This document shows, piece by piece, positions 125-40,114 of a stretch of 40,114 bases of DNA. Source of the DNA: a virus. The stretch's first letter is position 1; every line of letters starts with the position of its first letter. The notes under the pieces were generated by a model, which saw nothing but the letters and a program-made list of their open reading frames with translations, was not told the origin of the DNA and did not search any database. The stretch is taken from positions 1-40,114 of the IMG/VR virus record IMGVR_UViG_3300037041_001268; one strand, written 5' to 3'. A program made the position numbers and the translations under genes.

Positions 125-165
125 AAAAAAAAAGTTAAGGTCGAAATTAATCGACCTTTTAACTT
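125..165 (-). terminator. rho-independent terminator after the Pro/Ala-rich protein gene
   Basis: Read on the minus strand, the arm TCGACC/GGTCGA extends into TTAACTT/AAGTTAA with a two-base bulge and a six-base loop, and is followed by a run of nine T. The stop codon of the upstream gene (166-164) lies at the base of the hairpin. Confidence 0.75.
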
Positions 166-20900: not shown

Positions 20901-21284
20901 AGAACTCAAACACCATACATCGATAGTGGTTGGGTCTACGTTTGCAACCGTTGTGATTGACCAAGATGGTCCTGCATCATACCCTGATAGACCAAGAATT
21001 CTAGTTACAAACAATTGGTTAGATTGTTGTAAATATGCTTTTGCGATATACGCGGCTTCGTACTTTGGAATCTGTGTATTTACAAATTTTTCAGGTGAAG
21101 TCCCCCCAAATACGGTTTGGAAATCATCAAAACTTGTAATAAAGATTGGTTCAAAAGCCGGTCCTATCAGAGTCTCTCCAGCAATACCCAAAGTAGTTAC
21201 CCCTACACTCTGTGCTACAAAGCTTAAGTCAACCTCTGAAGTATAGACACCTGGTGAAACAAAAACCTTACTGTTTGTTGCCAT
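17934..21284 (-). CDS. gp18: tail sheath protein, enlarged (gp18-like)
   Basis: The contractile sheath subunit, at 1116 residues against 659 in T4. The N-terminus (SPGVYTSEVDLS, then GETLIGPAFEP) and the C-terminal 170 residues (LYVGRINPIATFSDVGTVIWG, NVRRLLLQARKLI, GKIYIKPTRSLEFIDI) are the conserved core that polymerises around the tube. The extra length is in the middle, where surface-exposed domains of the family lie. It includes a Pro/Thr-rich stretch at about 290-331 (PTPTPGVTASPTPTP and PTPTPTPVN) with nearby Cys. The gene has its own GTATTTATAG motif 31 bases upstream and a strong terminator. The Pro/Thr stretch resembles the stalks of the two paralogous proteins at 31599-34023 and could be a glycosylation target (inference). 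Confidence 0.9.
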   Translation of the reverse strand: MATNSKVFVSPGVYTSEVDLSFVAQSVGVTTLGIAGETLIGPAFEPIFITSFDDFQTVFGGTSPEKFVNTQIPKYEAAYIAKAYLQQSNQLFVTRILGLSGYDAGPSWSITTVANVDPTTIDVWCLSSVTDFTTCVTTCVTPKELTFTVQFTGCTNDSGTIEYLTSFPSEIEDLLLSQYEEFNGDTSTLNDQIQNLVFNVITSTNPYTAEDEQIAYFGSIATDDYDVLSGSGFSAETNVFEVPSVSFDDTDLNSAFNDSWYYALFNNNGNTNYSGFSFFTYVSGLTAYFPNPTPTPGVTASPTPTPSFVNPCITPSPFTSPTPTPTPVNIDCYSGTIVGKIYYYTGTSYVDYDNVVVGTLRSRGISTYTTDTNPTYSVTGTSDVTLDMTGQYAGVLKNPYLTFAVNVVDKFGTAYNFETSLTQNDPEYFTKVFGITNFQKPRIEVPVFAEEVFQSFLNYSWRKGYIKGLNPNLIALDSAQSGDPDSIGWYLDKWQTPASPYVVSELRGNKVYDLFRFYTVSDGDAANTLIKVSIINQTYNNLTFDVLIRDYFDTDANPVVLEKFTNCTMDPGQNNFVANKIGTLDGEYLLNSRYVMVEMSEDAPIDALPCGFNGFNFRNYAGANSPFPIIKGKYDFPGEVIYNPPFGLSSGNDNALISPGDNVRRTYLGISNSLGWDPAYFEYVGKRNPINSCDIDGLPFNYRSAGFHMDVNASGLTIGPEFSTSGDPRFICGNSPFITDPESPTNAYYRLFARKFTFLVQGGFDGWDIYREWRTNTDQFQIGRSGFLRGACPSTRYPNATGWGAFKEISLGDGTQNFANSDYYAYLLGQQTFANPEATNINVFVTPGIDYVNNSNLVEAAVEMIEFNRADSLYVCTTPDVDMYVPNLNGQDFLIYPTEAVDNLDNTGIDSNYTATYYPWVLTRDSVNNTQIYIPPTAEVTRNLALTDNIAFPWFAAAGYTRGIVNCIKARKKLTQEDRDILYVGRINPIATFSDVGTVIWGNKTLQVRESALDRINVRRLLLQARKLISAVSVRLLFEQNDAQVRQDFLNAVNPILDAIRRDRGLYDFRVTVSNDPEDIDRNQLTGKIYIKPTRSLEFIDITFYITPTGASFENI
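20305..20412 (-). repeat. PTPTP-coding repeats in the tail sheath gene
   Basis: The plus strand carries an exact 16-base direct repeat GGTGTAGGAGTTGGTG (20305-20320 and 20368-20383) among shorter GGTGTNGG units. They encode Pro-Thr dipeptide runs in the sheath insertion. Confidence 0.75.
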
Positions 21285-24944: not shown

Positions 24945-24959
24945 TCTTTTTATGATTGG

Positions 24960-24969
24960 AATATTTATC
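24960..24969 (+). promoter_or_regulatory. start-site motif AATATTTATC before the SOD-fusion gene
   Basis: Plus-strand GGAATATTTATCAAAG ends only a few bases before the ATG at 24974, closer than any other copy. If it is a promoter, the mRNA would be leaderless or nearly so. Confidence 0.4.
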
Positions 24970-24973
24970 AAAG

Positions 24974-27169
24974 ATGAAACTTTCAATCAAATACGAAAAT
25001 CAAGATATTAAAGAACACAAAGACTTTGTGAGTGAGTTCATAAAACTCCTACAAAAAGAATATCCCTTAAAACAAGATCTAAAAATTATCTTTATGGATG
25101 GTAAAAGGGGAGACATGTCCACAGGTAGTAGACGTGGTGATAATCTTATTAAAGTTTTGGCGAAAGGTAGATTAAATAGGGATATCATGAGAACTCTCGC
25201 ACATGAGTGGGTCCACGAATATCAAATGACAATCTTGAATAGGAAACCTGGACCAAACATCGGTGGAAAAAATGAAGACGAAGCAAACGCATTTGCGGGT
25301 CGTTTGGTTAAGATGTTTGAAAAAGAACATCCTGAATTGGAAGAAATCATGTATGAAAGTAAAAGTATAAAAGGTCGTATTGATCTTATATCCGAACAAA
25401 TACTTTTGACTGAAAAAGAAACTATTAAGGAAAATTTGTTGGTTGAGATGAAAAAAATTGGAATCGAAAAACTACCATACTCATATTCTGCATTACAAAG
25501 ATTTATTGATTCTAAAACCATGAATATTCATTACAACAAACACTATAAAGGTTATGTTGATAAACTGAATAAAGCAATCAAAGATAAAAAAGGTGATATG
25601 GATTTAGAAGAAATTATTAAATCCATTAGTAAGTTTGACGATAAAGTTAGAAATAATGCGGGGGGTGCTTTTAACCACGCTCTTTTTTGGAAAATGTTAT
25701 CACCAAAAAAACAATTACCAAAAGATGAAATCTTAAAAAAAATTAGAGAAGATTTTGGTAACATCAAAAAACTAAAAGACGAATTTAACAAAGCTGCTCA
25801 GGATCGGTTTGGATCTGGTTGGGCTTGGTTGTATTTGGCTAAAGACGGTAAATTAAAAATTATGTCCACACCTAATCAGGACAATCCCCTAATGAATATT
25901 ATTAAGGGGGGTGGTTATCCATTACTTGGTCTTGATGTTTGGGAACACGCTTATTATCTGAAATACCAAAATAAAAGAGACGAATATATTTCTAAGTTTT
26001 GGGACGTGGTGAATTGGGAATTTGTTAATGACTTATTAATTAGTAGGACTTCTAAGAAAAAACTTAACGAGTCAAATGGAATAAATGAAATAGCACTTAA
26101 ACGAGATTCCAAAATAGATTATTTATGTCGACAATCAAAATCAAAAGAATCACCTTATTGTCAATTAAAAAATTTCAGAGATGGGTTAGAAGATGATTAT
26201 TTGGTTAGCGAATTAGAACGTTCTATTTTTATATTAGACCAATTCTTTGTGATGAAAAATGTTGGTACGTTTCCCGTAATCATAAAATTAGCCCTCCAAG
26301 ACACAAATAGAACTGTGAACTTTTTAGAGTTAGTTTCAGACTTTATTGTAGATAAAAAATATGATGACGACCAAGTAAAAAAAATATTAACCAAACAAAG
26401 ATATTCCACCACAATACCTAAAGATATTGAGGGGTTATTGGCTTATGCAAGACAAAAAGAACACAGTAAATATGAAGATAGATTTTCAGGTGAGTACTTT
26501 GAGAAAAGACCGACAAAATTACAATTAGATTATAAATGTTCTGATAACGCGAAAGAAACATTAATTGATGTGTTAAAACAAGTTCATTCTGGTACCGAAA
26601 CTCTGGATTATACATTCTTTCAGATAGCATCTTGTTTATCTAAATCATTTAAAAAAGGTAGTTATTATATAAAGGCCGATTTAATTACTAAACAAGATTT
26701 AAAAGATGAAAACGGTAAAGTTATATTTCCGAGTGGATCATTCTTTGAGGTTAAAAAAATGGACCCATTCATAGATAGTTATTTATCAGAGTTTTTTTCC
26801 ATTTTCAAACAAAGCTCACTATCAAGCGAAAAACCAATATACTTAAAACTATACAACGAATTAATTGAGAAAATCTTTGTTTGGTTAAACACCAAACCTT
26901 CGGCTCAGGAATATCTCGATAAAGTTAGAAGTCAAATGTCGGGTATAATCTACGAGGGTGATTTAATTGTTCCTATCGAATATATTGATTTATATTGGTC
27001 CAATAAAGGTCAAAGAGGTTGTGATGAAAAAAGACTATCAATAAGGTTTAGAATAAAACCCGAATATAATAAAATTGATGGTTTCTTCTTTAGAGATAAA
27101 GATACTTTAGAATCAGTCACTTTGAATGTAAAATCAAAGGACAGAGAAAAGATCGTTTGTATTGACTAA
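24974..27169 (+). CDS. zincin metallopeptidase-superoxide dismutase fusion with unknown C-terminal domain
   Basis: A 731-residue protein in three parts. Residues about 1-125 are a small zinc-peptidase-like domain with HEWVH (H77, E78, H81) and a downstream NEDEANAFAG helix offering the third ligand. Residues about 165-357 are a complete Fe/Mn superoxide dismutase with ligands H186 (NIHYNKH), H235 (FNHALFW), D321 and H325 (DVWEHAYY). NNAGG and STPNQDNP (Gln302) match the manganese-type pattern, so superoxide would be converted to peroxide and oxygen. Residues about 375-731 match nothing I recognise. A TTG at 24956 could start the frame, but ATG 24974 is chosen because the start-site motif overlaps the earlier codons. 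An LISEQ sequence between the first two domains could be a processing site. The gene precedes the neck gene on the same strand, suggesting late expression. Confidence 0.85.
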   Translation: MKLSIKYENQDIKEHKDFVSEFIKLLQKEYPLKQDLKIIFMDGKRGDMSTGSRRGDNLIKVLAKGRLNRDIMRTLAHEWVHEYQMTILNRKPGPNIGGKNEDEANAFAGRLVKMFEKEHPELEEIMYESKSIKGRIDLISEQILLTEKETIKENLLVEMKKIGIEKLPYSYSALQRFIDSKTMNIHYNKHYKGYVDKLNKAIKDKKGDMDLEEIIKSISKFDDKVRNNAGGAFNHALFWKMLSPKKQLPKDEILKKIREDFGNIKKLKDEFNKAAQDRFGSGWAWLYLAKDGKLKIMSTPNQDNPLMNIIKGGGYPLLGLDVWEHAYYLKYQNKRDEYISKFWDVVNWEFVNDLLISRTSKKKLNESNGINEIALKRDSKIDYLCRQSKSKESPYCQLKNFRDGLEDDYLVSELERSIFILDQFFVMKNVGTFPVIIKLALQDTNRTVNFLELVSDFIVDKKYDDDQVKKILTKQRYSTTIPKDIEGLLAYARQKEHSKYEDRFSGEYFEKRPTKLQLDYKCSDNAKETLIDVLKQVHSGTETLDYTFFQIASCLSKSFKKGSYYIKADLITKQDLKDENGKVIFPSGSFFEVKKMDPFIDSYLSEFFSIFKQSSLSSEKPIYLKLYNELIEKIFVWLNTKPSAQEYLDKVRSQMSGIIYEGDLIVPIEYIDLYWSNKGQRGCDEKRLSIRFRIKPEYNKIDGFFFRDKDTLESVTLNVKSKDREKIVCID

Positions 27170-28342: not shown

Positions 28343-28693
28343 ATGGATATCATTAGAGAAAAACCGGTAAGAAAAACTGTAATAAAAGGAGATAGAACTT
28401 TAAATTTAGATACCTATGATACCATAGTTGTTAGTGATGAGTTTTATTCCACTAATGGAGAATCGTTAATAATTGTTAGAGATGTTGATAGTTGTACCAT
28501 AAAATTAGACTCAACCACAACACCAGATAAGATTGTAATTAAAACTTTAACTAATTGTTTAATCTTACCTGATGTTGGTCGAATTGACGATGATTGGGAT
28601 GAGATATCCGTAGGTCGTGGTGCTTGTGTTGAGTTAAAGAACGTCAGAGGTGTCTGGTATATTCTCTCCTCCGATGGTCTCAAGATCGAATAA
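28343..28693 (+). CDS. small beta-rich structural-like protein (116 residues)
   Basis: Unrecognised. The sequence alternates short hydrophobic strands with polar turns (TIVVSDEFY, SLIIVRDVDSCTIKLD, ACVELKNVRGVWYIL), as in the triple-beta or decorating domains of phage fibres and head proteins. The ending VELKNVRGVWYILSSDG is reminiscent of phage fibre C-termini. It follows the neck gene by four bases and is likely co-expressed. Its last 60 bases overlap the 3' end of the convergent DNA polymerase gene. The start ATG is the only good one after the neck gene. Confidence 0.7.
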   Translation: MDIIREKPVRKTVIKGDRTLNLDTYDTIVVSDEFYSTNGESLIIVRDVDSCTIKLDSTTTPDKIVIKTLTNCLILPDVGRIDDDWDEISVGRGACVELKNVRGVWYILSSDGLKIE

Positions 28694-31495
28694 GTTTTGA
28701 TTTGGTAGATATTTCCACATATAAGAGTCCGCATCTTTATACATATGGTAAGGAGTTTCACCAACTCTATCCCAAAAAGACATTTCCTCATTAGAAATTT
28801 CCATAACATCTTCTAATTTATCTTGGTCACCCTCATCAAATGGTTGTCCGTTAATTAACTCACACTGAACTTTAGTGAAGAAAGGTCTATCTTCAGGATT
28901 TTTAACCAATAAACCATTTCTAACTTCTTGTTGGAACACAACCAATAAAGGCTCAACTCTTTTATTGAAAGTTGCTATCGCTCTTTGGATGTTGTATTCA
29001 CCTGTCATAGTCGGATTACTTTCAAGATCTGATGGATCAATACGATAACAATTTAACTGAATAATTGATTCTGCGGATTCAGGTATTGTCGTACCATAAT
29101 TTGAAATGTATGTGTCGATGTGTTCTTGTGTCCACCCTTTCTTTGGTTTGTTAACTTTCTGAACATCACCATGTGAAGCTTTGGTTCCGTTATTCACATA
29201 AAAGATTACCTCACCAAGATTTGCATTTAACTTATCTCTAATTGCCAACTCCATGTGTGCTTGTCGAGACATCAACGCCCCCGCCTTAGTTTTGGTTTTA
29301 CTTCGTGCAATATAATCATCAATACTTTGTTTGATCTTAGCTTTGTTCGCAATATCCATTAACGGAATCTTTTGATCAAAGATCTTTTGTACGTATTCAT
29401 AATACCACTCAACAAACTCTTGTCCTTTACCATCAAGTAATAACTTAATTCCCTTATCCAAAAACTTCTCAATATAGATCGGCATTTTCTTAGACTTAAT
29501 TGAGTTTCCTGTAAGTTTGATCTTACCTTTAGCGGTGATAAGTGCGTAGTTCTTACGAGCTAAGTTAATACACGCTGGCCATTGTCCGTCAGTGTCAAGT
29601 GCCATCTCACCTCTCATTGCAAGATCATTAAACTCCATTACATCCGCTTCTTCACCAACATATTCTTTACCATCAACAACTTTCCAATTCAAACCCTTAC
29701 CGACGTATCTTCTTGTCTCAACACCTTCAGGGACTGAGAAGTTAATACCATCCGTATCCATTACGAGTGGTGTATATCCACGATCCATAAAGAAGTGAAT
29801 CATCATACGAAGATACTGACGACCTGTACAAGTAATCATCTCACCCTTATCCATGTCACCCCAATGGAATACCTGTGGAGCAGACAAGGCTCCGAACATC
29901 GAGTTGATGAAAATCTTAATTGGTAATTGTTTACGGTCATAAGATGTCGATTTCTTTTTGTCTATTGACGCATATTCTTCGGCAAGTTGTTTGTATTTGA
30001 TACGAGTGTTACGGAAGTAAGATAACAGACCTTTCATCGCACCTGTCACATCACACTCGGGGAATACATCGTGTACCAACTGAATAGATGGATATAGAGA
30101 CGAGTAGTCAAGCTTTAGAACGTTTCTTGAGTATCCTGTTCGGATCAGACGAGAAAGTCCTCCTACGAAGTTCCCTTTATCATTCTTAGCAGGAATTGCA
30201 AGTCCGTGTTTGTAAGACCAAGCCAACATTAACATTTTCCATAATGTTGCGGTACCCATCGTTGAAACTCTTTCGTATGTTGTTGGGAGTAGTGATGCCA
30301 ACAAGAATGATCCTTGGTTGAATTCTTCGTCAACCAATAAGGTTTCTTCCAAGTCATCGTCAAGATAACGCTCGATGATGTCGTCCCCCGTTGTTTTAAT
30401 ATAAACGTTTGAGTGTCTACCACATACGTCATCGATCTTAGGGTCTACACCAACCTTTTTGTATTTACCATTTTCTATGTTCAACCAGTAGTCTTCTTTC
30501 TCACGATACATAGACCCAATCTTATCATGATCTACATAAACACGATCAGGAGCCTCAGCCTCAATATATTTGGTAATATACTTCAAACCTGCCTCTTTGA
30601 TGTTTGAGTTAATTGCTTGCGCTCTACGAACTGAGTGAAGGATATCAATAATGTTGTAACCCCACATTTGAGTTTGGTTAAACTTCTCAACCTCGTTGGC
30701 GAGTTTCAACATAGATTCCTTAGTTGAAATACTTTTTTCAGGGTTGAGGGACTTTGCGATTTTCTTAATGTCAAGATTCAACATCTTACATCTTTCGTAA
30801 ATCCAATACCAGTCGAAGTTAAATGAATTGTATCCTGAAAGAATTGATGGTTTGTGTTCGTCAATTAAATTGAAGAACTCCACAAGTCCTCTTCTTTCAT
30901 CATCAGGTGTGGCACACTCGATTACTTTTCTAAATCCTTTGTTTGTTTTAACTCCAATCATAAAGATACGACCATCCTTGGGCTCAAGTGAGGTCGTCTC
31001 CAAGTCGAATACCATCCTCGTGATGTCGTTGTATTCCTCGAATCCCTTGAATAGTCGTTTCTCTTTTGAGATGAGGTATTGTTCAACAGGAGGTAATACC
31101 ATAACAAGATCTTTGGTTTTTTCACCCCAAGGATCTACACCACCTTCTCTAAAGAATTGAATGAGGTTTCTATAACCTTTCATTGACTTAACCATAAAGG
31201 TAAGTCCTCGTTCTAAACGATCATTACCATCAGTTCGAAGTTTCTCGATGATGATACCATGTTTAGACATGGCTTCTTTCTGTAACGCTTTTGATGATGA
31301 ATAAAAGTTTTGACCACGTAAGTCACCAACCCAAGCAAATGAGATTAATGTATCTCTTTGGATCTGTTTACCTTTACCTGGAACTTCTTTGATTTTGTAG
31401 ATTTTGTCGGATACGTAATCGTACTCTACCGATACGATAAATTCTTCAGGGTCATTTCCCTGAAGAAATTGTTCTATTTCTTCTTGTGATATCAT
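28634..31495 (-). CDS. gp43: family B DNA polymerase (gp43-like)
   Basis: The replicative polymerase, 953 residues (T4 gp43: 898). It carries the 3'-5' exonuclease motifs FDLETTS (D164, E166) and GYNSFNFD (D228), then palm motif A LDYSSLYPS (about 463), motif B NSMFGAL (about 526) and motif C MDTDGINF (about 578), where the usual DTDS reads DTDG. Further on comes a KKMPIYIEKF thumb-side motif. The C-terminus carries the extra segment expected for clamp interaction but without a clear clamp box. No intein or split is seen. It is read against the small beta-rich gene and shares its final 60 bases with it. A hairpin in the leader (31521-31538) could be a regulatory target. The only start-site-like motif is about 55 bases away, so it may belong to an early class. 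Confidence 0.95.
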   Translation of the reverse strand: MISQEEIEQFLQGNDPEEFIVSVEYDYVSDKIYKIKEVPGKGKQIQRDTLISFAWVGDLRGQNFYSSSKALQKEAMSKHGIIIEKLRTDGNDRLERGLTFMVKSMKGYRNLIQFFREGGVDPWGEKTKDLVMVLPPVEQYLISKEKRLFKGFEEYNDITRMVFDLETTSLEPKDGRIFMIGVKTNKGFRKVIECATPDDERRGLVEFFNLIDEHKPSILSGYNSFNFDWYWIYERCKMLNLDIKKIAKSLNPEKSISTKESMLKLANEVEKFNQTQMWGYNIIDILHSVRRAQAINSNIKEAGLKYITKYIEAEAPDRVYVDHDKIGSMYREKEDYWLNIENGKYKKVGVDPKIDDVCGRHSNVYIKTTGDDIIERYLDDDLEETLLVDEEFNQGSFLLASLLPTTYERVSTMGTATLWKMLMLAWSYKHGLAIPAKNDKGNFVGGLSRLIRTGYSRNVLKLDYSSLYPSIQLVHDVFPECDVTGAMKGLLSYFRNTRIKYKQLAEEYASIDKKKSTSYDRKQLPIKIFINSMFGALSAPQVFHWGDMDKGEMITCTGRQYLRMMIHFFMDRGYTPLVMDTDGINFSVPEGVETRRYVGKGLNWKVVDGKEYVGEEADVMEFNDLAMRGEMALDTDGQWPACINLARKNYALITAKGKIKLTGNSIKSKKMPIYIEKFLDKGIKLLLDGKGQEFVEWYYEYVQKIFDQKIPLMDIANKAKIKQSIDDYIARSKTKTKAGALMSRQAHMELAIRDKLNANLGEVIFYVNNGTKASHGDVQKVNKPKKGWTQEHIDTYISNYGTTIPESAESIIQLNCYRIDPSDLESNPTMTGEYNIQRAIATFNKRVEPLLVVFQQEVRNGLLVKNPEDRPFFTKVQCELINGQPFDEGDQDKLEDVMEISNEEMSFWDRVGETPYHMYKDADSYMWKYLPNQNLFDLETIGGENIPDTSDVL

Positions 31496-31598: not shown

Positions 31599-32438
31599 TT
31601 AATTACAATCGATAATTTCTGTAATTACGCCATCGGTTACATAGAACATTCTATAACCTCCCTCATAATTGGTGAGAAAGTATCCGGTGTCGTTTGTTTT
31701 ATAACAAGAAATTTCATTATCAAAAACTAAAGACCCAACATTTAATGTTGGTAAGTTAAAGAACCTAACAAGATAATCTGAAGTGGTACAATTACCTTGT
31801 AAGAAACAAAGATAACCATAACAAATACTTTCTATTGAGTCGAATGTACCAAACTGATCTGTACCATAAACTAAGTTCTTCATCACAGGGTGGGGACAAA
31901 TCGGTTGGTTTGGTGTTTGAGTAGGTGTTGGTGTTATTGTTGGCGTCGGTGAATTAGATGGTGCTGGTGTAGGACTAATAACAGGTGCTTTGGTTGGTGT
32001 TGGTGTTGGTGATGGGAATGGTGTCGTACAACAACTATAATTTAATGTATAACAACTGTTATACGGTAAACTATCAGAAATGAAACTCTCAACAACATTT
32101 ATAAATAATGGTTCTCTAATTGGTAGAACTAAAGTGCCGTCATCATTTATGAACATAAACTGACCTTCGTATCTACCAATTCTACTCGTATCCTGTTGTG
32201 TAAATCTGTAGTAAACGTAATATTCAGGTGATGCGTTGGGGTTCATCTCAAGTTTTTCAACAAACCCTGCTGATTTTGTATATACTTTTGGTATACCGTT
32301 ATCGGTACCAACCATAGAAAAAAAGATTGATGATCTTTCTATAAACTCCATCATATCCTCAAAACTCTGAGTACCGTCATTCACTACTTGCATTTTAAGT
32401 ACTGGTAATGACGCGTTCTGACCTATTGTAAATTCCAT
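31599..32438 (-). CDS. stalked virion protein A (anchor, Pro/Thr stalk, head)
   Basis: A 279-residue protein in three parts. Residues 1-137 are an anchor domain aligned without gaps to that of the neighbouring gene (shared LPVLK, FFSMV, YYVYY-FT--DT, GRY-GQF-F, LVLP, CC). Residues 138-182 are a stalk of PTPTP and SPTPAPS units. Residues 183-279 form a unique Cys-containing head with no recognised family. Phage adhesins are often built this way, with a common baseplate or capsid anchor and varied tips, so a fibre or decoration role is likely (inference). The ATG at 32438 is preferred over a TTG one codon earlier because it stands 12 bases after GTATTTATAG. The stalk is a candidate for O-glycosylation by the enzymes encoded upstream. 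Confidence 0.75.
   Translation of the reverse strand: MEFTIGQNASLPVLKMQVVNDGTQSFEDMMEFIERSSIFFSMVGTDNGIPKVYTKSAGFVEKLEMNPNASPEYYVYYRFTQQDTSRIGRYEGQFMFINDDGTLVLPIREPLFINVVESFISDSLPYNSCYTLNYSCCTTPFPSPTPTPTKAPVISPTPAPSNSPTPTITPTPTQTPNQPICPHPVMKNLVYGTDQFGTFDSIESICYGYLCFLQGNCTTSDYLVRFFNLPTLNVGSLVFDNEISCYKTNDTGYFLTNYEGGYRMFYVTDGVITEIIDCN
31893..32027 (-). repeat. Pro/Thr-rich stalk coding repeats, protein A
   Basis: GGTGTTGGTGTT-like units on the plus strand encode the 45-residue PTP/TPT stalk between the CC of the anchor and the PICPHP that opens the head. Confidence 0.75.
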
Positions 32439-32450
32439 CAATTCTTTTAA

Positions 32451-32460
32451 CTATAAATAC
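32451..32460 (-). promoter_or_regulatory. start-site motif GTATTTATAG before stalked protein A
   Basis: A perfect copy of GTATTTATAG with a 12-base gap to the ATG at 32438. Confidence 0.65.
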
Positions 32461-32478
32461 TTGGAAATTAAAAGTTGG

Positions 32479-34023
32479 TTAACAATTAGGTCCTATTGTT
32501 GTTGACCCGTTAGATTGTTGGATTGGAAAAGAACCACAAATTGTAATTGTTTGACCTAAACCAATTTGTTGTCCCGCTAATTTAGCATCACAACCGTACC
32601 ATCTTACCAAACTACCATTTGGGTTTGTTCTCGTAATTGTTAGTTCTCTACAAGGGATTGGTCCAGTACAGTTTAAAACAGCACTAACATACTGAGGTTG
32701 GGTTCCACCAGATGTTAAAAATGAATATCTTTCTGTTAATGGAACGTAGTCTCTTTCTAAAACAGTGAATGATGAAGTTGATAAAAGATAATTGACTGGT
32801 GATGTGAGAAATTGATCATTAAATAACTCCATCCCGACCTCTAAAGTTGGTGATTCTTGAGTAAATATTGTTACATATGGCGTTGTATCCCTGTCACAAA
32901 AAAATCTCATATCACTAACGCCTTCCGATATAGACCATGCAGTCGATCTTATTTCAGGTCTTTTGACAGTTTCTTCACATACGTCAACAATAGTTCCCCC
33001 ATTTCCTCCCGTACCTGATATAGATATATTACTATATGGGAATTCAGTACTTATCCTAAAATAACCACTTCCTATCTCACAATCTGTATTATCGCCAGCC
33101 GTAATTGTATTACCACTAATTGTTGCACAACAATATTCACAAGCGGCAATCGTTGGTATCATTTCTAAACCATCAAGTCTTTGTGTTGTTATTGTAAATG
33201 ATTCAGTAGCGGCTGCAGTTTTTTCATAATTTATGAATCTAAAAACAACGTCGTTTACAGGACCGCCGATAAATGTTATGTTATAATTGAATGGTGACGT
33301 ACTACCTAAAAGTAAATTACCTGATGATGCCCCCTCTAATTCTTCAAAACAAGTCATAACCGTACTTGCAGTTGTTGCTGTTATATCGGTAGGTAGAATA
33401 GTTCCTGGTGATAATCTAATACCATTATATATTACCGTCTGCAATAGTTGAGGTAGGGTTGCCCCTGAGGTACAGACTTCGCAAGGTATTGCCGTTGACG
33501 TTGTTGTGGTTATTGGTGTTGTTGTACTTGTTGTTGTTGATGGTGAGAATGTTGTACTCGTCGTTGTTGGACCTGGTGGTACAGGTCCTGGTGGTGTTGG
33601 TATAAATCCTGTACAGCAAGGATAATCTACAACATAACAACTTTGGAATTCCATGTCATCAAGAACAAAACTATCAGTTACGTTGATATAAATCTCTTCG
33701 TTTAATGGTAATACTAAAATACCTGTATCATCTCTAAAAAGAAATTGACCTTTATACCTACCAACTTTTTTTGTGTCAAATGGTGTGAATTGATAATACA
33801 CATAATAATCTGAAGTAGAAGCGGTTGATGGTGCAAGTTTTGACATTAAACCTGCAGGTCTTGTGGTAATTCTTGGGATATTAGTTGCAGTATCCACCAT
33901 AGAAAAAAACACGTCAGTTTCAGATAGAAACTTCATGGATCTATTGTAGTCACTTCTACCGTCTTTTATTACGTTAATTTTTAATACAGGTAGCGTCGCA
34001 TTTTTCTTGATAAAGAATTCCAT
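32479..34023 (-). CDS. stalked virion protein B (anchor, Thr-rich mucin-like stalk, large head)
   Basis: 514 residues from the ATG at 34023 (a TTG five codons earlier is less likely, given the motif 12 bases upstream). Residues 1-137 are the anchor shared with protein A. Residues 138-182 are a stalk of almost the same length (IPTPPGPVPPGP, then TTTSTTFSPSTTTSTTTP), with more than half Thr/Ser. Residues 184-514 form a Cys-rich, beta-type head with Ig-like repeats (ISISGTGGNGG; ITRTNPNGSLVRWYGCD). The heads of A and B share nothing obvious, so a duplicated anchor and stalk carry different tips. Thr/Ser/Pro stalks of this sort are typical O-glycosylation sites; glycosyltransferase genes are adjacent. 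A receptor-binding or decoration role is inferred. Confidence 0.75.
   Translation of the reverse strand: MEFFIKKNATLPVLKINVIKDGRSDYNRSMKFLSETDVFFSMVDTATNIPRITTRPAGLMSKLAPSTASTSDYYVYYQFTPFDTKKVGRYKGQFLFRDDTGILVLPLNEEIYINVTDSFVLDDMEFQSCYVVDYPCCTGFIPTPPGPVPPGPTTTSTTFSPSTTTSTTTPITTTTSTAIPCEVCTSGATLPQLLQTVIYNGIRLSPGTILPTDITATTASTVMTCFEELEGASSGNLLLGSTSPFNYNITFIGGPVNDVVFRFINYEKTAAATESFTITTQRLDGLEMIPTIAACEYCCATISGNTITAGDNTDCEIGSGYFRISTEFPYSNISISGTGGNGGTIVDVCEETVKRPEIRSTAWSISEGVSDMRFFCDRDTTPYVTIFTQESPTLEVGMELFNDQFLTSPVNYLLSTSSFTVLERDYVPLTERYSFLTSGGTQPQYVSAVLNCTGPIPCRELTITRTNPNGSLVRWYGCDAKLAGQQIGLGQTITICGSFPIQQSNGSTTIGPNC
33478..33612 (-). repeat. Thr/Ser-rich mucin-like stalk coding repeats, protein B
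   Basis: TTGTTGTTG-type repeats on the plus strand encode long Thr runs. The length equals the stalk of protein A although the sequences differ, which suggests selection for length and composition rather than sequence. Confidence 0.75.
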
Positions 34024-34035
34024 TAAACCTTTTAT

Positions 34036-34045
34036 CAATAAATAC
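34036..34045 (-). promoter_or_regulatory. start-site motif GTATTTATTG before stalked protein B
   Basis: Near-perfect GTATTTATTG, 12 bases before the ATG at 34023. Confidence 0.55.
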
Positions 34046-34050
34046 TTCGT

Positions 34051-35718
34051 TTAGAATTCTTTTCTTAAATGACCTTCGTAATGATCAAATCTATTATGGT
34101 CTGTTGGTGTCATAAGTAGTAACCCCGCGTTAATCCTACCCTTAACAGTTTGTTTATAACAGTGAGACATAAGAGTTTGTTCGTATGGATAATCAAACTT
34201 AGTTTCAATATAACATTTGTAATTTCCTTCGCGAGATAAGATGATAGGCCAGTTTGATAAATAAACTTCACCTGTAGCATATGGAACACCTTCGTGTGAT
34301 TTTATGTTTCTGAATTCTAATTTTGGTACATTAGGACTTTCACCATGATGTGCTAAGTTTTGATTAAATGGCCAGTGGGATTGTCTAAATTCTTGGTCTA
34401 CATTAAACCACGACCACTGATTTTCGTGACTACCATAAAATTCTGTAAAATTAAATTTAAGAAAATCGAATTGTTCTTTTCTAGCAATTTGTAAAACCTT
34501 TCTATATAAATTTTTAGTTTTTCTACTAAAACCATTTTTACAAGTATTATTAGGACCGGTATAAAAAAACATGTCATCTTCAAAAAATATATAATAATCC
34601 ATCTCAGAATTTTCAAAATGATCTGCAACAAAAACTCTACCACCAGTTATCCCAATATTATCTTTTTTGATATGTTCAAATCCATATTGTTGACAAAGTC
34701 TTTCGTAATCAGGAGTGGTCGTTAAATCGGTAGAATTATTAAGTAAAAACTTTTTAGTTTTTGAAATGAATTCAGAGTCGTATTCTATCATGGACTCTAT
34801 TAGGGTCTCAAATTGTTTTGGACTATTGAATGTGATGACATATAAACCTATTTCACCATTTGTTTTAACTTCTGTTTTTTTATTACTTGATATTGTTTTA
34901 ACTACCACAGTATCATTTTTAATATCCTCGAAAAATTTATATAATAATCCATTTGATTCTATCTCAACATACTCGGTAATCGTGGGGTTATTATATAATA
35001 AAATTGAAAATAAACTTTCTTCGGTTCCCATTAAACCTCTTTGTAAAGTTGTCTTCATTAAGTTATAGTACAAACCGTTCATTTCTCTAATTTTTTCTTT
35101 TGTACCACCAAAAAAACCACCTCTCGCAACTTTGTCAACTCTAACACCGGTCAATTGTGTCATTCTATCGATATCAAATCCATGTATCTCACGATCGGCT
35201 TGGTATGGAAAACAAATAAATGTAAAATTATCAAACAACCTATCAATTTTTGGTAATACATTATCGTGAGTGAAATAACCCATATGAACAGTATTTGCCA
35301 ATCCAGCATCGATCCAATATAATTTATTTGAATTGAATTTATCTAAAATTACCGCATCATGTAAAATAAACATTTTCGACATTACCAAAGGGTTATACAT
35401 CTCTAACCTTGCTTGGGTCGAGTCTTTTAACCAACCAGCGAGGTTATACCACTTTGGTTTATTTCTAATTTCTTGTATTTGACCGTAGAATTCATTTGTC
35501 CTAAACCACTCTAAATCTCGTAAAACAAACTGCGTGTTCTCATCTTTTCTTCTTTCTTTTACAAAAGTTTCTAATTCACGATCACCAAATATTATCATAT
35601 TACAATCAACTTGGAGTAATTGCTCAAACTTATTTAAGTAATAATCAAATGATCGAGACCAACCTTCTGAAAGATCACCACGACCTATATCCCACAAACC
35701 TGTAACTAATGTTATCAT
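34051..35718 (-). CDS. two-domain glycosyltransferase (HtrL/YibB-like plus GT-A)
   Basis: 555 residues. The N-terminal half (VTGLWDIGRGDL, a central YWIDAGLA and downstream MGTEES) has the HtrL/YibB pattern, a glycosyltransferase-like family of LPS loci. The C-terminal half has a GT-A fold pattern: LYVITFNSP start, NIGITGGRV in the nucleotide-binding region, and FFEDDM (about 379) supplying the metal-binding acids. Two active sites on one chain suggest successive sugar transfers. It overlaps the next gene (ATGA), so the cassette 34051-38555 is a translationally coupled operon. Acceptor unknown; the adjacent stalked proteins are a reasonable guess. It could instead modify host glycans or phage DNA. 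Confidence 0.7.
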   Translation of the reverse strand: MITLVTGLWDIGRGDLSEGWSRSFDYYLNKFEQLLQVDCNMIIFGDRELETFVKERRKDENTQFVLRDLEWFRTNEFYGQIQEIRNKPKWYNLAGWLKDSTQARLEMYNPLVMSKMFILHDAVILDKFNSNKLYWIDAGLANTVHMGYFTHDNVLPKIDRLFDNFTFICFPYQADREIHGFDIDRMTQLTGVRVDKVARGGFFGGTKEKIREMNGLYYNLMKTTLQRGLMGTEESLFSILLYNNPTITEYVEIESNGLLYKFFEDIKNDTVVVKTISSNKKTEVKTNGEIGLYVITFNSPKQFETLIESMIEYDSEFISKTKKFLLNNSTDLTTTPDYERLCQQYGFEHIKKDNIGITGGRVFVADHFENSEMDYYIFFEDDMFFYTGPNNTCKNGFSRKTKNLYRKVLQIARKEQFDFLKFNFTEFYGSHENQWSWFNVDQEFRQSHWPFNQNLAHHGESPNVPKLEFRNIKSHEGVPYATGEVYLSNWPIILSREGNYKCYIETKFDYPYEQTLMSHCYKQTVKGRINAGLLLMTPTDHNRFDHYEGHLRKEF

Positions 35719-36314
35719 TTAACTTTCTTTTTACAAACCCAAACAATTTTATCGAATTCCTCTTTATTAAAAAATTCTAATCCTTCTCTTAATGAGACCT
35801 CAACAATATATTTTTCCTCAACTTCACACCAATTCCATATCTTATCTTTAAAATCGGTTTGGTAATTTTCCCACGTATCGATATAGTCGTGAGCCAAAAT
35901 GTAATCACCTGTTTTGACGTGAGGTGCGATACTGTTAAACTCACCTATTTTATGACCTCCATCACAAAAAACAATAGTTGTTCCTTCCTCTTGTATGTAA
36001 GGTACAATCCTTTCAGGTTTTACTAAGTTAACGTAAGCGTGATCAAAAATATTCTCGATGTTAATTTCAATATTATGAGTTCTTAATTTTTTGTAATAAG
36101 GACTTTCGACTACATCAAAAGTTCTAATTGGTACACTCGGTAAACCTATTTCATTTAATATCTCTCTGACCGCTAATATAAATCCTCCTCCTGCAGTGCC
36201 GATTTCTAAAACTCTAGCAGGTCTAACCTCTTCTAAGAATTTTCTAATTGTTGGGTAGAAATTGTCTACCTGTTGTGCTGTATACCCTTTGTACTCTGTG
36301 TGTCCTTTTATCAT
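35715..36314 (-). CDS. class I SAM-dependent methyltransferase (CmcI-like)
   Basis: 199 residues. Motif I is VLEIGTAGGGFIL (35-47), the SAM-binding glycine loop. The post-motif region carries DVVESPYY, followed by VFCDGGHKIGEFNSI and DYILAHDY, the pattern of sugar- and antibiotic-modifying methyltransferases (Methyltransf_24/CmcI). In glycan gene clusters such enzymes O-methylate sugars. It is coupled to the two-domain glycosyltransferase by an ATGA overlap and separated from the upstream gene by one base. Substrate by context only. Confidence 0.75.
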   Translation of the reverse strand: MIKGHTEYKGYTAQQVDNFYPTIRKFLEEVRPARVLEIGTAGGGFILAVREILNEIGLPSVPIRTFDVVESPYYKKLRTHNIEINIENIFDHAYVNLVKPERIVPYIQEEGTTIVFCDGGHKIGEFNSIAPHVKTGDYILAHDYIDTWENYQTDFKDKIWNWCEVEEKYIVEVSLREGLEFFNKEEFDKIVWVCKKKVK

Positions 36315-36315
36315 A

Positions 36316-37314
36316 TTAATTTAACCATTTGTCTAATTCTAATAACTCGAAAGTTAATTTTTCTATATTTGGTGATTTGATATTCCGATCAAACCATTCT
36401 ATTTGATTTTTTGAAATAAACTCTAAAAATTCTTTGTTTTGTCTTACCTCAAGAAACTTTTCTATGTATAGGTCGGCAACGCCTTCTTCTTTATTTTTTT
36501 CATATGCTAAATACGCCTTTTCTCTTGGTATTGAGATGTAGTGGTGATTTGGTAAAAGAGGATCGTGGACCGCATCTTTATACTCTATTCGTATAAATGG
36601 TAAACCCACAGACATATATTCAATATCTCGATAACAAAACTCACCAGGATGATCAAATGGTGTTGTGTATTTATCAAGATCTAAGTAATGACTCAATCCA
36701 ATTTTACTATTAATCATTTTGTCTAAATAATCTTTAAATTCGTAATTATTAGTTTTTTGTAAATAACCCTTCAATTCGACTTCTTTAACACTTTTCCTGT
36801 ACGAATCAATTCCACTACCTAAATAAAATAATTTGTCCTCTAATTCCGTTTTTGATTTTCGCAACTCTCGGTAGTGATCAAAATCAAATTCCTTGAATGG
36901 TAAAAAAATCCAAGGTCTTACTTTGTCTATGTCCTTTAAACTTCGTTCTCGTTTGAACCAATCGTATCTGTTTGACCAATTAAAATGAACCAATAATATT
37001 TTACTACATGAATTAGATTTAGCGAAATGAGTAACGTAATGAGTAAAATATTCCGTAAACGAAAGAATTTTAATTTCTGAGGTCTCTAAATTTTCAATCA
37101 CATATTCAACATCAGAAATAGGTGGTGTATTACCAAAACTTGATATTTCAGATTGTAAATTAATTTTACCTGAAAAAGTTTCACCGTCTGTGTTGTAATT
37201 AACGACATCAACGTCAAAAAAGTCCAATAAAAATTTATCAAACTTTTTAAAGAAAGGTAAATGAGATCTACCCCATAATTCATTTTCGAAACGATGTATT
37301 CTTATTCTTATCAT
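36316..37314 (-). CDS. GT-B-like glycosyltransferase
   Basis: 332 residues without a perfect family match. The C-terminal half has the GT-B signature region: KLFYLGSGIDSYRKS, then KIGLSHYLDLDKYTTPF, then CYRDIEYMSVGLPFIRIEY, where an E preceding the SVGLP loop usually contacts the nucleotide-sugar ribose. The N-terminal half holds alternating strands and a KILLVHFNWSNRYDWF segment. It is coupled by ATGA overlap to the upstream GT60-like gene and by a 1-base gap to the methyltransferase gene. Exostosin-like or capsule-type glycosyltransferase are the best alternatives. Confidence 0.6.
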   Translation of the reverse strand: MIRIRIHRFENELWGRSHLPFFKKFDKFLLDFFDVDVVNYNTDGETFSGKINLQSEISSFGNTPPISDVEYVIENLETSEIKILSFTEYFTHYVTHFAKSNSCSKILLVHFNWSNRYDWFKRERSLKDIDKVRPWIFLPFKEFDFDHYRELRKSKTELEDKLFYLGSGIDSYRKSVKEVELKGYLQKTNNYEFKDYLDKMINSKIGLSHYLDLDKYTTPFDHPGEFCYRDIEYMSVGLPFIRIEYKDAVHDPLLPNHHYISIPREKAYLAYEKNKEEGVADLYIEKFLEVRQNKEFLEFISKNQIEWFDRNIKSPNIEKLTFELLELDKWLN

Positions 37315-38555
37315 AAGTTTCCAACAATTCTATCACACCAATCTTTAGAAACTGAGTGAGGCCAAACTACCCAATAAGCAGGTACTTGTGTTGAATGGAA
37401 TTCTCGCCACACTTTACCATAACCATCAGGATCAGCCTTTATTCTTGCAATCTCATTCGCATCTGCGTCTTGTCTGAATAAAGTGTTGTGGTCTTTATCG
37501 TGGAACGCAACAACCCAAAAATCATAATCAGGTTCAGGTACTTGTTTTAAATCCAAATCAATACAGTGTTTGAAAATACTCGAGAATGATTTTTTCCATT
37601 CTTCTTCGTTCTCAAACTCATTAGTATTTGGTGGATATTTCTTGTCTATTGTTTCTTGTTGGACTCCTCTTGTCTCAAACAGAAGTCCGGCATATTTTTC
37701 ATAATCTCTGATAGTTCTTTCAGTACCAAACCATTCTGAAGTGTCTCCACTATATTTTTCACCATCAACGCCAAGTAATTGTCTATTCTTAATATGACAA
37801 GCCATATTCTTTTTGTACCACTCTTTGTCATCATCCCACTGTTTTGTTCTACCTTTTCTTGTGTATTCGTGCCAAATTAATACTTTGTGTGGGTGGAATA
37901 AATCGTATCCATGTGTATAAGCTCTTACGGTTATTGAAATTTCTTCTCCATGAAAATAAAATTCAGGATCATGTTGTACCTCAGTTGAGAATTGACCTAA
38001 AGTAAAACAGAAGTGAGCAGAATAAAATCTTGCCGGAATTGGTTCTTTAAGTTCCTTCCACCCTGGTATAGTTTCAGGTAAAAAAAATACAACACCTTCA
38101 GGTGTAAATCTATCAAAAGCCATTCTCCACGGAACATCAACTCTACCTTGGGGATCATTCTCAGGATCGAATGATGAAACATAACCTGTCAATAAAGGTT
38201 TTTTATGACCTTTCTTTTGAAGTTGTTTGATCATCTTAATCATTTCATCATCCCAATTTTTCTCGAATCTCATATGTGAATCGATCTGTAGGGTATATTC
38301 TTCACCCTCATAAAGTTGTTGTGTTAAATGTCTTGCCCAACAAACTCCTGTTGATTCTGTGTATGGAATATCTAAGATACGGAATCTACTATCTCCATCA
38401 AATTCTGATAAATCATCAAAACCATCTTCAGGGTGAAATTGTCTCGCAATACCAAATCTTATATTTTTTGGTTTTTTTGCGTTTTCCAACATAGATTTAA
38501 TTGTTGGTATAAGCTGTGGATCTCGATAGGATGCTATCTGTACGAATATTCTCAT
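37311..38555 (-). CDS. GT60-like polypeptide GlcNAc-transferase relative
   Basis: 414 residues matching the PF11397/GT60 pattern: the opening IFVQIASYRDPQLIPTIKSM, a Q in GIARQF, the metal site QIDSHMRF (D92, H94), a later FHGEEISITVRAYTHGYD (E204, E205) and HKVLIWHEY. Characterised members of the family attach GlcNAc to hydroxyproline of Skp1 or to Thr of mucins; here activity is inferred. The C-terminal 110 residues (from about 305) are additional and unknown. The gene heads an operon with ATGA overlaps downstream. Two Thr/Ser/Pro-stalked proteins lie at the other end of the cassette, suggesting they could be the acceptors. Confidence 0.75.
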   Translation of the reverse strand: MRIFVQIASYRDPQLIPTIKSMLENAKKPKNIRFGIARQFHPEDGFDDLSEFDGDSRFRILDIPYTESTGVCWARHLTQQLYEGEEYTLQIDSHMRFEKNWDDEMIKMIKQLQKKGHKKPLLTGYVSSFDPENDPQGRVDVPWRMAFDRFTPEGVVFFLPETIPGWKELKEPIPARFYSAHFCFTLGQFSTEVQHDPEFYFHGEEISITVRAYTHGYDLFHPHKVLIWHEYTRKGRTKQWDDDKEWYKKNMACHIKNRQLLGVDGEKYSGDTSEWFGTERTIRDYEKYAGLLFETRGVQQETIDKKYPPNTNEFENEEEWKKSFSSIFKHCIDLDLKQVPEPDYDFWVVAFHDKDHNTLFRQDADANEIARIKADPDGYGKVWREFHSTQVPAYWVVWPHSVSKDWCDRIVGNL

Positions 38556-38595
38556 ACAGAAAAAATATTAAAAATTGTTTACTTGTAAATCAAAA

Positions 38596-38901
38596 TTAAG
38601 GAGGACCCTCAAATAAAAATATACTGTCGTCTTGAAATAAAAACACATGGAAGTCTTCGAACTCTTTACCGTAGTATTCACCACAAGAAAGTGACATAAA
38701 GTATGTACAACCTAAAGAGTCTACCACTTGAAGTATAATATCCGTAACATTTGTAAGAGGTGCGGGTACCATAAATAAATATGGTGTTGGTAATGATGTC
38801 GATCCTGTTACTAAATAACAATACGTGTAGGTCTGATCACATACTGAAACTGTGTATGGTGGTGTACCTGTTACTGAATTTATTTGGATGTAGTTTGGCA
38901 T
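38596..38901 (-). CDS. small SprB-repeat-like protein (101 residues)
   Basis: The core GTPPYTVSVCD, then LQVVDSLGCTY, is the beginning and end of an SprB/PKD-like Ig domain (G-x-PPYT-x-S, then V-x-D-x-x-GCT). Many such repeats build the gliding adhesin of flavobacteria; here there is a single copy. The last 25 residues (KEFEDFHVFLFQDDSIFLFE) are a different hydrophobic, acidic tail. It has its own GTATTTATAG motif 12 bases upstream, suggesting a structural product such as a decoration or tip protein. The domain call rests on pattern only. Confidence 0.65.
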   Translation of the reverse strand: MPNYIQINSVTGTPPYTVSVCDQTYTYCYLVTGSTSLPTPYLFMVPAPLTNVTDIILQVVDSLGCTYFMSLSCGEYYGKEFEDFHVFLFQDDSIFLFEGPP

Positions 38902-38913
38902 TTAACCTTTATC

Positions 38914-38923
38914 CTATAAATAC
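38914..38923 (-). promoter_or_regulatory. start-site motif GTATTTATAG before the SprB-like gene
   Basis: A perfect copy, with AAG before it and a 12-base gap to the ATG. Confidence 0.65.
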
Positions 38924-38947
38924 TTAGTAATATAAAATCAAAAGTTA

Positions 38948-39337
38948 CTAAAGAACATCTGTGTGATTTCTACCATCGTTCCAGTAACTCAGATCGCCAT
39001 ACCAAACAAAAATTTCTTCGTCTTTCTTTATTTCTCTGTTGGAAATAAATTTGAAGGTTCTGTTTTCAATGTCTGACACCCAAAAAGCGTTTGGGTCGTT
39101 ACTGTGATTATATAGACTACCATACCCTAATGCCAACACTTGTTCTTCCCATTCAGTACCTTGAGGCCAATTGAATCTGTAATCAATTAGTAAAGGAGTT
39201 GATTCACCCTTTGTTATTGGTAAAGTAAGAATTGGGCATTCCTCAAAAACCTCACCTTCCATTATATCTTCTTTAGCAAAAACACCCCAACCATGAATTG
39301 GGCTTTTGTCAGCATATATTTTTGGATTATATATCAT
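38948..39337 (-). CDS. SET-domain protein methyltransferase
   Basis: 129 residues from the ATG at 39337, which lies one base after the FkbM gene's stop; an ATG nine codons earlier would overlap that gene by 26 bases. The motifs IHGWGVFAKEDI (14-25), GYGSLYNHSNDPN (71-83, where NHS-x-x-PN is the SET knot) and REIKKDEEIFVWYG (101-114) are the SET domain in its proper order, at the minimal size seen in viral SET proteins. These enzymes methylate protein lysines with SAM. The target is unknown; it could be a virion protein, given its neighbours. Confidence 0.85.
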   Translation of the reverse strand: MIYNPKIYADKSPIHGWGVFAKEDIMEGEVFEECPILTLPITKGESTPLLIDYRFNWPQGTEWEEQVLALGYGSLYNHSNDPNAFWVSDIENRTFKFISNREIKKDEEIFVWYGDLSYWNDGRNHTDVL

Positions 39338-39338
39338 A

Positions 39339-40114
39339 TCATCTAACTGCTTCACATATACCACCTTCAGAATATGTGGAATACCCTTTATTATTTAACC
39401 AAGAATAAATTTCATTCTTTTTATCATCACTCAAGTTGTAGTCCTCAAAAATAATAAAATTTGGTAGTTTTATTTTTGTTTCATCTATACTCATGATTAA
39501 CTCAGCATCTAATCCCTCAACATCTAAATGTAGCCAATCAATTTGACCACCACATTCATTTAAGATCAAGTCGGTAATACTGATTGAACTTCTTTTGGTT
39601 GAGTTGATTTCCTCAGTTTCCCAATGTCTGATTACGTTCTCTACTACTGTATTTGTATATCCTTCACCACCCTCAAAAAATTCTACATCACCACCATTTG
39701 TTGTGATTAAATTTTGTATCGGTTTAATTAAAGAATGGTTTTTGTAATTATTTTTTAACCTATTAAATTGTTTGTCCGATGCCTCAACTAAAATAATATT
39801 CGCCTCTCGCTTCATTGCGATAGGTACCCATTCACCAAACTCACCATCATGTGTTCCAATAACTAACCCTTTTGGTAACTTACCATTTGATAACACTTCT
39901 TTATTGAACATCCATAGTGATTTGTAAAAGTGGTTCCCGTGTTCCATAATATCCCAAACTTTTTTATATACCAATCTATCTTTGGAATCGGTTATCTCAA
40001 CATCGTACATTTCTGTGTTTGGGAAAGTTGCAAACCAATTATCGTTTAAGTTGGTTGACCATTGTTCTTCACCACTTACGTGTTTTATAATTTTTAATCT
40101 TAAAGGTAGGTTCT
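39339..40114 (-). CDS. FkbM-family methyltransferase, 5' end outside the window
   Basis: The frame is open to the right window edge (34 further residues before the first internal Met at 40010), so the true start lies outside. The SAM region GLVIGTHDGEFGEW and VEASDKQFNRL, and the later QIDWLHLDVEGLDAELI motif, are typical of FkbM methyltransferases, which often O-methylate sugars in glycan gene clusters. The stop lies one base before the probable ATG of the SET gene, so the two are coupled. It belongs with the other transferases of this cassette. The first residues visible (LRLKIIKHVSGEEQWS) do not identify an additional domain. Confidence 0.85.
   Translation of the reverse strand, partial: NLPLRLKIIKHVSGEEQWSTNLNDNWFATFPNTEMYDVEITDSKDRLVYKKVWDIMEHGNHFYKSLWMFNKEVLSNGKLPKGLVIGTHDGEFGEWVPIAMKREANIILVEASDKQFNRLKNNYKNHSLIKPIQNLITTNGGDVEFFEGGEGYTNTVVENVIRHWETEEINSTKRSSISITDLILNECGGQIDWLHLDVEGLDAELIMSIDETKIKLPNFIIFEDYNLSDDKKNEIYSWLNNKGYSTYSEGGICEAVR

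Follow-up and report, generated by a model that had tools for sequence, protein, structure and literature searches.

What does a contractile-tailed phage do with a row of glycosyltransferase genes that lies directly beside genes for Thr/Pro-rich adhesins? The DNA analysed here, which we call the window, is a viral record of 40,114 bases that is itself a genome fragment. It carries a contractile-tail module, with sheath, tube and baseplate genes, and a family B DNA polymerase (PolB) at 28634-31495; beyond PolB and on the same strand lies the region in question. An earlier note on this DNA had proposed that an enzyme cassette in this region serves the mucin-like proteins encoded next to it. After comparing the locus with its relatives we consider it probable that the phage uses the cassette to build O-linked glycans on surface proteins of its own, with a GT60-like enzyme starting the glycan on the Thr-rich tracts of adhesins.

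The locus

From the GT60-like gene, whose first base is 38555, down to the end of the first stalk protein at 31599, the genes form a densely packed run, all on the minus strand (Table 1). Neighbouring genes share ATGA overlaps at 37311-37314 and 35715-35718, a single base at 36315 separates the GT-B-like and CmcI-like genes, and the gap before the adhesin 2 gene is 12-27 bases, depending on which start codon is used. The layout given in the earlier note, two stalked proteins followed by an HtrL/GT-A fusion, a CmcI-like methyltransferase and a GT60-like enzyme, with ATGA or one-base junctions, is what we find. The FkbM methyltransferase that it had counted in the same run does not belong there, as two genes, one for a 101-aa protein and one for a SET-domain protein, separate it from GT60.

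Table 1. Features of the window, with positions counted from its first base.
Feature	Position	Strand	Basis
Tail sheath	17934-21284		
Tail sheath Thr/Pro tract, residues 292-330, possible further acceptor	20295-20411	-	
Adhesin 1, baseplate-type: BppU-like anchor, Thr/Pro tract, C-terminal domain	31599-32441	-	
Adhesin 1 Thr/Pro tract, residues 136-185, proposed acceptor	31887-32036	-	
Anchor domain of adhesin 1	32022-32438	-	
Adhesin 2, baseplate-type: BppU-like anchor, Thr/Ser/Pro tract, C-terminal domain	32479-34038	-	
Adhesin 2 Thr/Ser/Pro tract, residues 140-194, proposed acceptor	33457-33621	-	
Anchor domain of adhesin 2	33598-34023	-	alignment; fold match made on paralogous adhesin 1 domain
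Tandem GT-A fusion, HtrL/YibB-like first half	34051-35718	-	PF09612, AlphaFold, fold matches
Second GT-A domain of fusion, EDD motif	about 34078-34857	-	
Variable interior gene, CmcI-like methyltransferase	35715-36314	-	PF04989 marginal; related cluster in relatives
Variable interior gene, probable glycosyltransferase, GT-B-like C-terminal half	36316-37314	-	distant homologues
GT60-like glycosyltransferase (PF11397), proposed initiator	37311-38555	-	Pfam, PHROG, DSH motif
101-aa protein adjoining GT60	38596-38901	-	blastp matches
SET-domain protein between 101-aa protein and FkbM	38948-39364		
FkbM methyltransferase, open at window edge	39339-40112	-	PF05050

The enzymes

The assignment of the proposed initiator to GT60 is well founded. 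The protein matches the Pfam family PF11397 (GlcNAc), which we take to be CAZy family GT60, at 236.1 bits against a cut-off of 21, and over its whole length it matches PHROG 24687, a phage family called 'glycosyltransferase', at 541 bits. Its D92-S93-H94 (DSH) motif is unchanged in 30 aligned relatives, including those from Xanthomonas phage XacN1 and Stenotrophomonas phage RAS14; after GT27/GT60, this DxH is presumably a catalytic motif of the metal-binding type. A sequence search returned no relative of solved structure, and NCBIfam has no name for this protein or for the CmcI-like and GT-B-like ones.

Described GT60 enzymes put GlcNAc on a mucin-domain protein or on the hydroxyproline of Skp1 (PMC8724618, PMC6939170). 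Hydroxyproline is an unlikely acceptor in these phages. The Skp1-type enzyme requires it, and a matching hydroxylase of the 2OG-FeII_Oxy_3 family (PF13640) was found in just 1 of 15 large phage relatives in a search whose controls were positive; Thr is therefore the likelier acceptor.

The product of the fusion gene contains an HtrL_YibB domain (Pfam PF09612, 63.9 bits against a cut-off of 24.1). It falls far below the cut-off of the NCBIfam equivalog TIGR02192 (77.1 against 264.9 bits), so this part is a related domain and not an orthologue. An AlphaFold model of the fusion has two GT-A domains (mean pLDDT 87.9), the relative placement of which is uncertain as the pTM is only 0.54. By predicted structure, the N-terminal half resembles GT6 enzymes (Z 13.6), the C-terminal half resembles B4GALNT1 (Z 15.0) and POMGnT1 (Z 14.1), and the whole chain resembles the collagen glycosyltransferase LH3 and mimivirus R699, which also have two tandem GT-A domains. 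The last is a likeness of fold only, with about 10-12% identity and a large rmsd over the whole chain, and the lysyl hydroxylase part is absent from the phage protein. These predicted fold similarities say nothing about the acceptor.

Between the two core enzymes lie two further genes. The CmcI-like protein matches RMNT_CmcI (PF04989) marginally, at 23.7 bits against a cut-off of 23.2. Its neighbour has no Pfam match; distant homologues of it occupy the same position in four other GT60-HtrL intervals, and one of these has weak matches to GT90 and Glyco_trans_1_2. The gene seen earlier is present and its product is probably a glycosyltransferase, but the GT-B character ascribed to it, for the C-terminal half, is only weakly suggested by these four homologues.

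The FkbM domain of the gene at the window's edge is clear (PF05050, 32.5 bits against a cut-off of 22.7). However, we rejected both it and the SET gene as members of the cassette: among the best 80 of 422 relatives, FkbM has no close counterpart next to GT60 and the SET gene adjoins GT60 only in the two nearest. FkbM-type genes do occur among the interior genes of other loci, and that of the window is possibly an accessory tailoring enzyme outside the conserved unit. Domains homologous to the 101-aa protein are found in much larger GT60-adjoining proteins of relatives, several of them tract-bearing.

Stalked adhesins and their tracts

We define a tract as at least 70% T/S/P within a 30-aa window. 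By this threshold the linkers, put at 45 residues in the earlier note, are 50 residues long in adhesin 1 and 55 in adhesin 2. The probable ATG starts of the two genes are at 32438 and 34023, since both proteins then begin MEF(T/F)I. The codons of both tracts are mixed (for Thr in the adhesin 1 tract, ACA 8, ACG 2, ACC 1, ACT 1), so the tracts are no DNA microsatellite. A third tract lies in the tail sheath and is also present there in two related genomes.

The N-terminal domain, about 139 residues long, is common to both adhesins. The anchor has no Pfam match and no relative of solved structure by sequence search, and the stalk proteins have no PHROG match outside the tract. A model of the adhesin 1 domain (pLDDT 81) gives a fold match list led by baseplate proteins, namely the BppU of TP901-1 (Z 8.7, 97 residues, rmsd 2.7), NF5 (Z 8.3) and 80alpha (Z 8.3), with antibody domains next at Z 7.9, only slightly below the baseplate chains. 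The identity to TP901-1 BppU is 19% over the aligned part, and the C-terminal parts differ. We propose with moderate confidence, on the basis of this model, that the domain is a BppU-like baseplate anchor.

Across 91 tract proteins encoded by relatives, Thr makes up 40% and Pro 23% of the tract residues. Some of these proteins carry laminin-G-like, legume-lectin, CBM5/12, LRR or PKD domains, a content that fits adhesins.

A fixed core around a variable interior

We found 422 viral contigs with GT60 relatives and examined the best 80, calling genes by a plain ORF procedure; dereplication at 97% GT60 identity left 48 loci with both core enzymes. Except for the search from the anchor domain, the counts in this and the following paragraph refer to these best 80 of 422. 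GT60 identity is about 73-74% or higher, and in most contigs the order is GT60, variable genes, fusion, BppU-like anchor protein, PolB. When the search was started from the anchor domain instead, GT60 was present in 53/53 and the fusion in 52/53 of the loci with a 6 kb flank.

Within this bracket the 48 loci show 30 different interior arrangements, of 0 to 8 genes belonging to 47 clusters. The slot before the fusion holds an unnamed 293-aa family in 17/48 loci and a CmcI-like family in 13/48. The gene directly upstream of GT60 is also changeable, with 38 different clusters in 47 loci. A Pfam tally of the interior lists transferases (GT25, GT34, GT10, GT31, GT2 and PLOD-type) and tailoring enzymes (several methyltransferases, a carbamoyltransferase and a sulfotransferase). 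No membrane helix, scored as a 19-residue stretch with a mean hydropathy of at least 1.9, is predicted in any of 140 interior proteins. We looked for recent horizontal swapping, taken as interior genes that exceed the likeness of their GT60s by over 8 points, and found no evidence of it among the 48 loci; the interior thus varies by gain, loss and replacement without visible recent transfer. As the interior genes vary and the two bracketing enzymes are fixed, related phages probably wear different glycans.

Tract proteins adjoin the GT60 gene

The earlier note had suggested a survey of related phages for the co-occurrence of the stalks and the GT60-like gene. At the anchor site the stalks are not a conserved partner: 30 of the 48 dereplicated relatives from the best 80 of 422 have an anchor protein without a stalk. 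The expectation does hold for any nearby tract protein, which is present in 34 of the 35 dereplicated loci in which the sequence upstream of GT60 extends for 4 kb or more (same best 80 of 422). Where the anchor protein is stalkless, the tract protein lies upstream of GT60 (19/20 loci); where it is stalked, downstream (15/15). Thus a Thr/Pro-rich protein is encoded near GT60 in either arrangement, although the gene that supplies it differs.

In five contigs of 273-304 kb there are 12 tract proteins in the 156 kb near GT60 (77/Mb) and 18 in the remaining 1,309 kb (14/Mb; Poisson P 3e-6). Among random viral loci, picked with an arbitrary 14-mer, there are 2 in 1.14 Mb (1.75/Mb), and random contigs of less than 42% GC without PF11397 have none in 808 kb, so the three tract proteins in the 40 kb of the window are beyond chance.

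The association was also approached from the other side, with contigs of at least 15 kb picked only by an in-frame Thr-Pro DNA pattern. PF11397 is present in 12 of 50 such contigs and in 0 of 43 random ones (Fisher P 3e-4). Nine of these 12 have a tract gene no more than 2.6 kb from GT60, for which the chance estimate is 5e-8 if tracts are scattered at 14/Mb. At least three of the nine have a GT60 only 38-43% identical to that of the window and no HtrL fusion in the examined stretch, so the link reaches past this lineage. The other three of the 12 have no tract in the examined stretch, two of them being remote family members (28% and 35% identity); PF11397 members need not all serve this role. 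Conversely, 38 of the 50 tract-picked contigs, many of them fragments, are without PF11397, so tracts also exist without the enzyme. As the loci share ancestry, these counts are not fully independent.

What is general, then, is the association of GT60 with whichever Thr/Pro-tract protein adjoins it. The idea of an enzyme cassette beside mucin-like adhesins gains from this, with co-occurrence far above chance in related and distant phages; the stalks at this particular spot are not the conserved acceptor.

Relation to known systems

The nearest cultured relatives are XacN1 and the Stenotrophomonas phages RAS14 and CM1, whose hosts are Pseudomonadota. As in the window, a GT60-like gene and a fusion (ORF334 and ORF330 in XacN1) lie near PolB; in all three they are within 6 kb of each other and near genes for giant proteins. 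Compared with the window, GT60 is 47% and 43% and the fusion 40% and 38% identical. The giant protein near the core genes carries a Thr/Pro tract in XacN1 and RAS14, the two that were checked. Unlike the window, all three have an interior of a carbamoyltransferase and one or two other genes. According to the XacN1 paper, the phage has at least two glycoproteins, and its authors proposed phage glycosyltransferases, including ORF334, as their makers; the accessible text draws no link between the enzyme and the tracts (PMC5852040).

Virion glycosylation has also been published for mycobacteriophages (Freeman et al. 2023, cited in PMC12619734). As proposed here, the glycans are on virion proteins, but the acceptors there are the C-termini of capsid and tail-tube subunits (PMC12619734), whereas our candidates are Thr/Pro tracts of baseplate-type adhesins. 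The same paper describes the moraphages (Perez-Hernandez et al. 2025, PMC12619734), large aquatic phages with mostly Bacteroidota hosts and four core glycosyltransferase groups. The lineage of the window is probably that of the moraphages, for which the accessible portion of the paper describes neither tract proteins nor a bracketed cassette.

Outside phages, the protist GT60 polypeptide alpha-GlcNAc transferases belong by Pfam to the same family. Those of the T. cruzi type act on Thr-rich mucin-type acceptors, like the ones proposed for the phage, and Skp1 Gnt1 of Dictyostelium and Toxoplasma acts in the cytoplasm, where the phage enzyme would also work. These systems are eukaryotic, unlike the phage cassette.

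It follows from the XacN1 glycoproteins, the ORF334 proposal and the mycobacteriophage work (PMC5852040, PMC12619734) that to call the system 'undescribed' was too strong. Phage virion glycosylation is known and a GT60 homologue has been proposed to make the XacN1 glycoproteins. In the literature as far as it was accessible, we found no description of a variable cassette bracketed in this way or of its link to adhesin Thr/Pro tracts, and a search for mucin-like phage fibres returned nothing relevant.

Alternative explanations

Glycosyltransferases can be explained in other ways, and the adjacency of the adhesins might be incidental if the enzymes modified phage DNA bases against restriction, in the style of the T-even phages. 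The moraphage glycosyltransferase groups were first discussed as possible DNA modifiers (PMC12619734), PolB adjoins the cassette, and phrog_842, a beta-glucosyl-HMC-alpha-glucosyltransferase, weakly matches the fusion in its C-terminal half (E 0.007). A ThyA-family enzyme is present in 8 of 15 large relatives, by a match that cannot separate hydroxymethylase from ThyA, but it was not found in several relatives of 229-297 kb. Tet_JBP matched in 0 of 15, in a search that had no positive control. For XacN1, which has both core genes, an analysis is reported in which the genome was digested with BssHII, NaeI and SpeI (PMC5852040). The digestion, together with the absence of ThyA-family enzymes from several large relatives, makes DNA modification very unlikely, and such a role would leave the tight association with tracts unexplained.

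A second alternative is that the infecting phage uses the cassette to alter the host's surface polysaccharide, for instance so as to keep other phages out, with the adhesins adjacent through a common concern with recognition of the host surface. In jumbo cyanophages, glycosyltransferase clusters have been read as systems for capsular or outer polysaccharide (PMC7824862). The name of GT25 refers to LPS biosynthesis, and hypervariable gene content would suit a recognition arms race. However, the interior is without membrane proteins, which disfavours this role: by hydropathy, the 140 interior proteins include neither the membrane flippase nor the membrane-bound transferases of Gtr-type serotype conversion, and neither a flippase nor an enzyme that starts synthesis on a lipid carrier is among the 25 interior Pfam families listed. 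The GT60 enzymes characterised in PMC8724618 and PMC6939170 act on protein, and glycoproteins are reported for XacN1 (PMC5852040). We regard this explanation as rather improbable. Also unlikely is a third possibility, in which the tracts serve adhesins simply as flexible spacers and the targets of the enzymes are other proteins of the virion, such as capsid, tube or sheath. Thr/Pro linkers are common spacers, tracts occur in contigs without PF11397, and the mycobacteriophage acceptors are capsid and tail-tube subunits (PMC12619734). Against this, tract genes selectively adjoin GT60, and a general spacer role does not predict that where the anchor is stalkless a tract protein appears on the other side of GT60.

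Proposed mechanism and implications

We propose that glycosylation of the tracts would proceed in three steps. On newly made adhesins in the host cytoplasm, the GT60-like enzyme would move a sugar onto Thr residues of the tract, to judge from its family; GlcNAc from UDP-GlcNAc is the probable donor, although both donor sugar and linkage are guesses by analogy with GT60. Judging by fold and position, the glycan may then be extended by the tandem GT-A fusion together with the glycosyltransferases of the interior, and interior methyl-, carbamoyl- or sulfotransferases could cap it. In the window phage the acceptors would be both BppU-anchored baseplate proteins, with the sheath as a possible addition, and in other phages they would be other adhesins, that is, the tract proteins adjoining GT60.

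More tentatively, the locus may correspond, in a phage, to the antigen loci of bacteria. A fixed GT60 and dual transferase would bracket a varying set of enzymes, so that related phages would wear different glycans on mucin-like and equally variable adhesins. This is a plausible reading that we do not hold firmly; if it is true, the glycan could keep proteases off the stalks, shield the virion or help to bind the host.

Glycosylation of phage particle proteins is known from few cases. If our proposal is correct, one lineage of large aquatic phages would have it as a widespread modular trait, in which the acceptors are of mucin type and the enzyme that starts the glycan comes from the family that glycosylates protist mucins. 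Recombinant adhesins made without the glycan may then behave unlike the real ones, which would change how phage adhesins are expressed and tested. The proposal would also supply an enzyme and its acceptor as a defined pair for trial in a laboratory host.

Genes around the glycosyltransferase

Homologues of the 101-aa protein (Table) flank the GT60 glycosyltransferase gene even in divergent, HtrL-less lineages (L502, L506 and L509), and they also match the 3,289-aa protein of L075, which carries many Thr/Ser/Pro-rich tracts. In L019 and L020, Thr/Pro tract makes up most of a large protein (about 1,430-1,530 aa), in one case with a single run of 789 residues.

Directly before the HtrL fusion, the tandem GT-A gene, 17 of the 48 dereplicated loci encode a 293-aa family. 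This family has no Pfam match and is possibly an unnamed transferase family. The SET-domain gene is conserved in the two nearest relatives (76-84%). Among the 15 large relatives, 2OG-FeII_Oxy_3 genes occur only in L081 (G100, a 294,914-base contig), where the HtrL domain and GT60 lie about 17.5 kb apart instead of close together.

Location of the features discussed
Feature	Position	Strand	Remark
101-aa protein	38596-38901		
SET-domain gene	38948-39364		protein lysine methyltransferase type; overlaps FkbM gene
Tail sheath	17934-21284		1,116 aa
737-aa protein	24956-27169	+	
228-aa protein	164-850		
Thr/Pro-tract protein	L020:3021-7601		short distance upstream of GT60
Thr/Pro-tract protein	L019:5655-9941		short distance upstream of GT60
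293-aa family, example	L006:11242-12129		
HtrL domain	L081:60469-61215		
GT60	L081:78722-79969		

Other proteins of the window

The 737-aa protein looks, by eye, to hold an Fe/Mn superoxide dismutase domain within its longer sequence. The N-terminal stretch of the 228-aa protein is Pro/Ala-rich, a type of low complexity different from the Thr/Pro tracts. The tail sheath is very long and contains a Thr/Pro tract, as do the sheaths of two related genomes.
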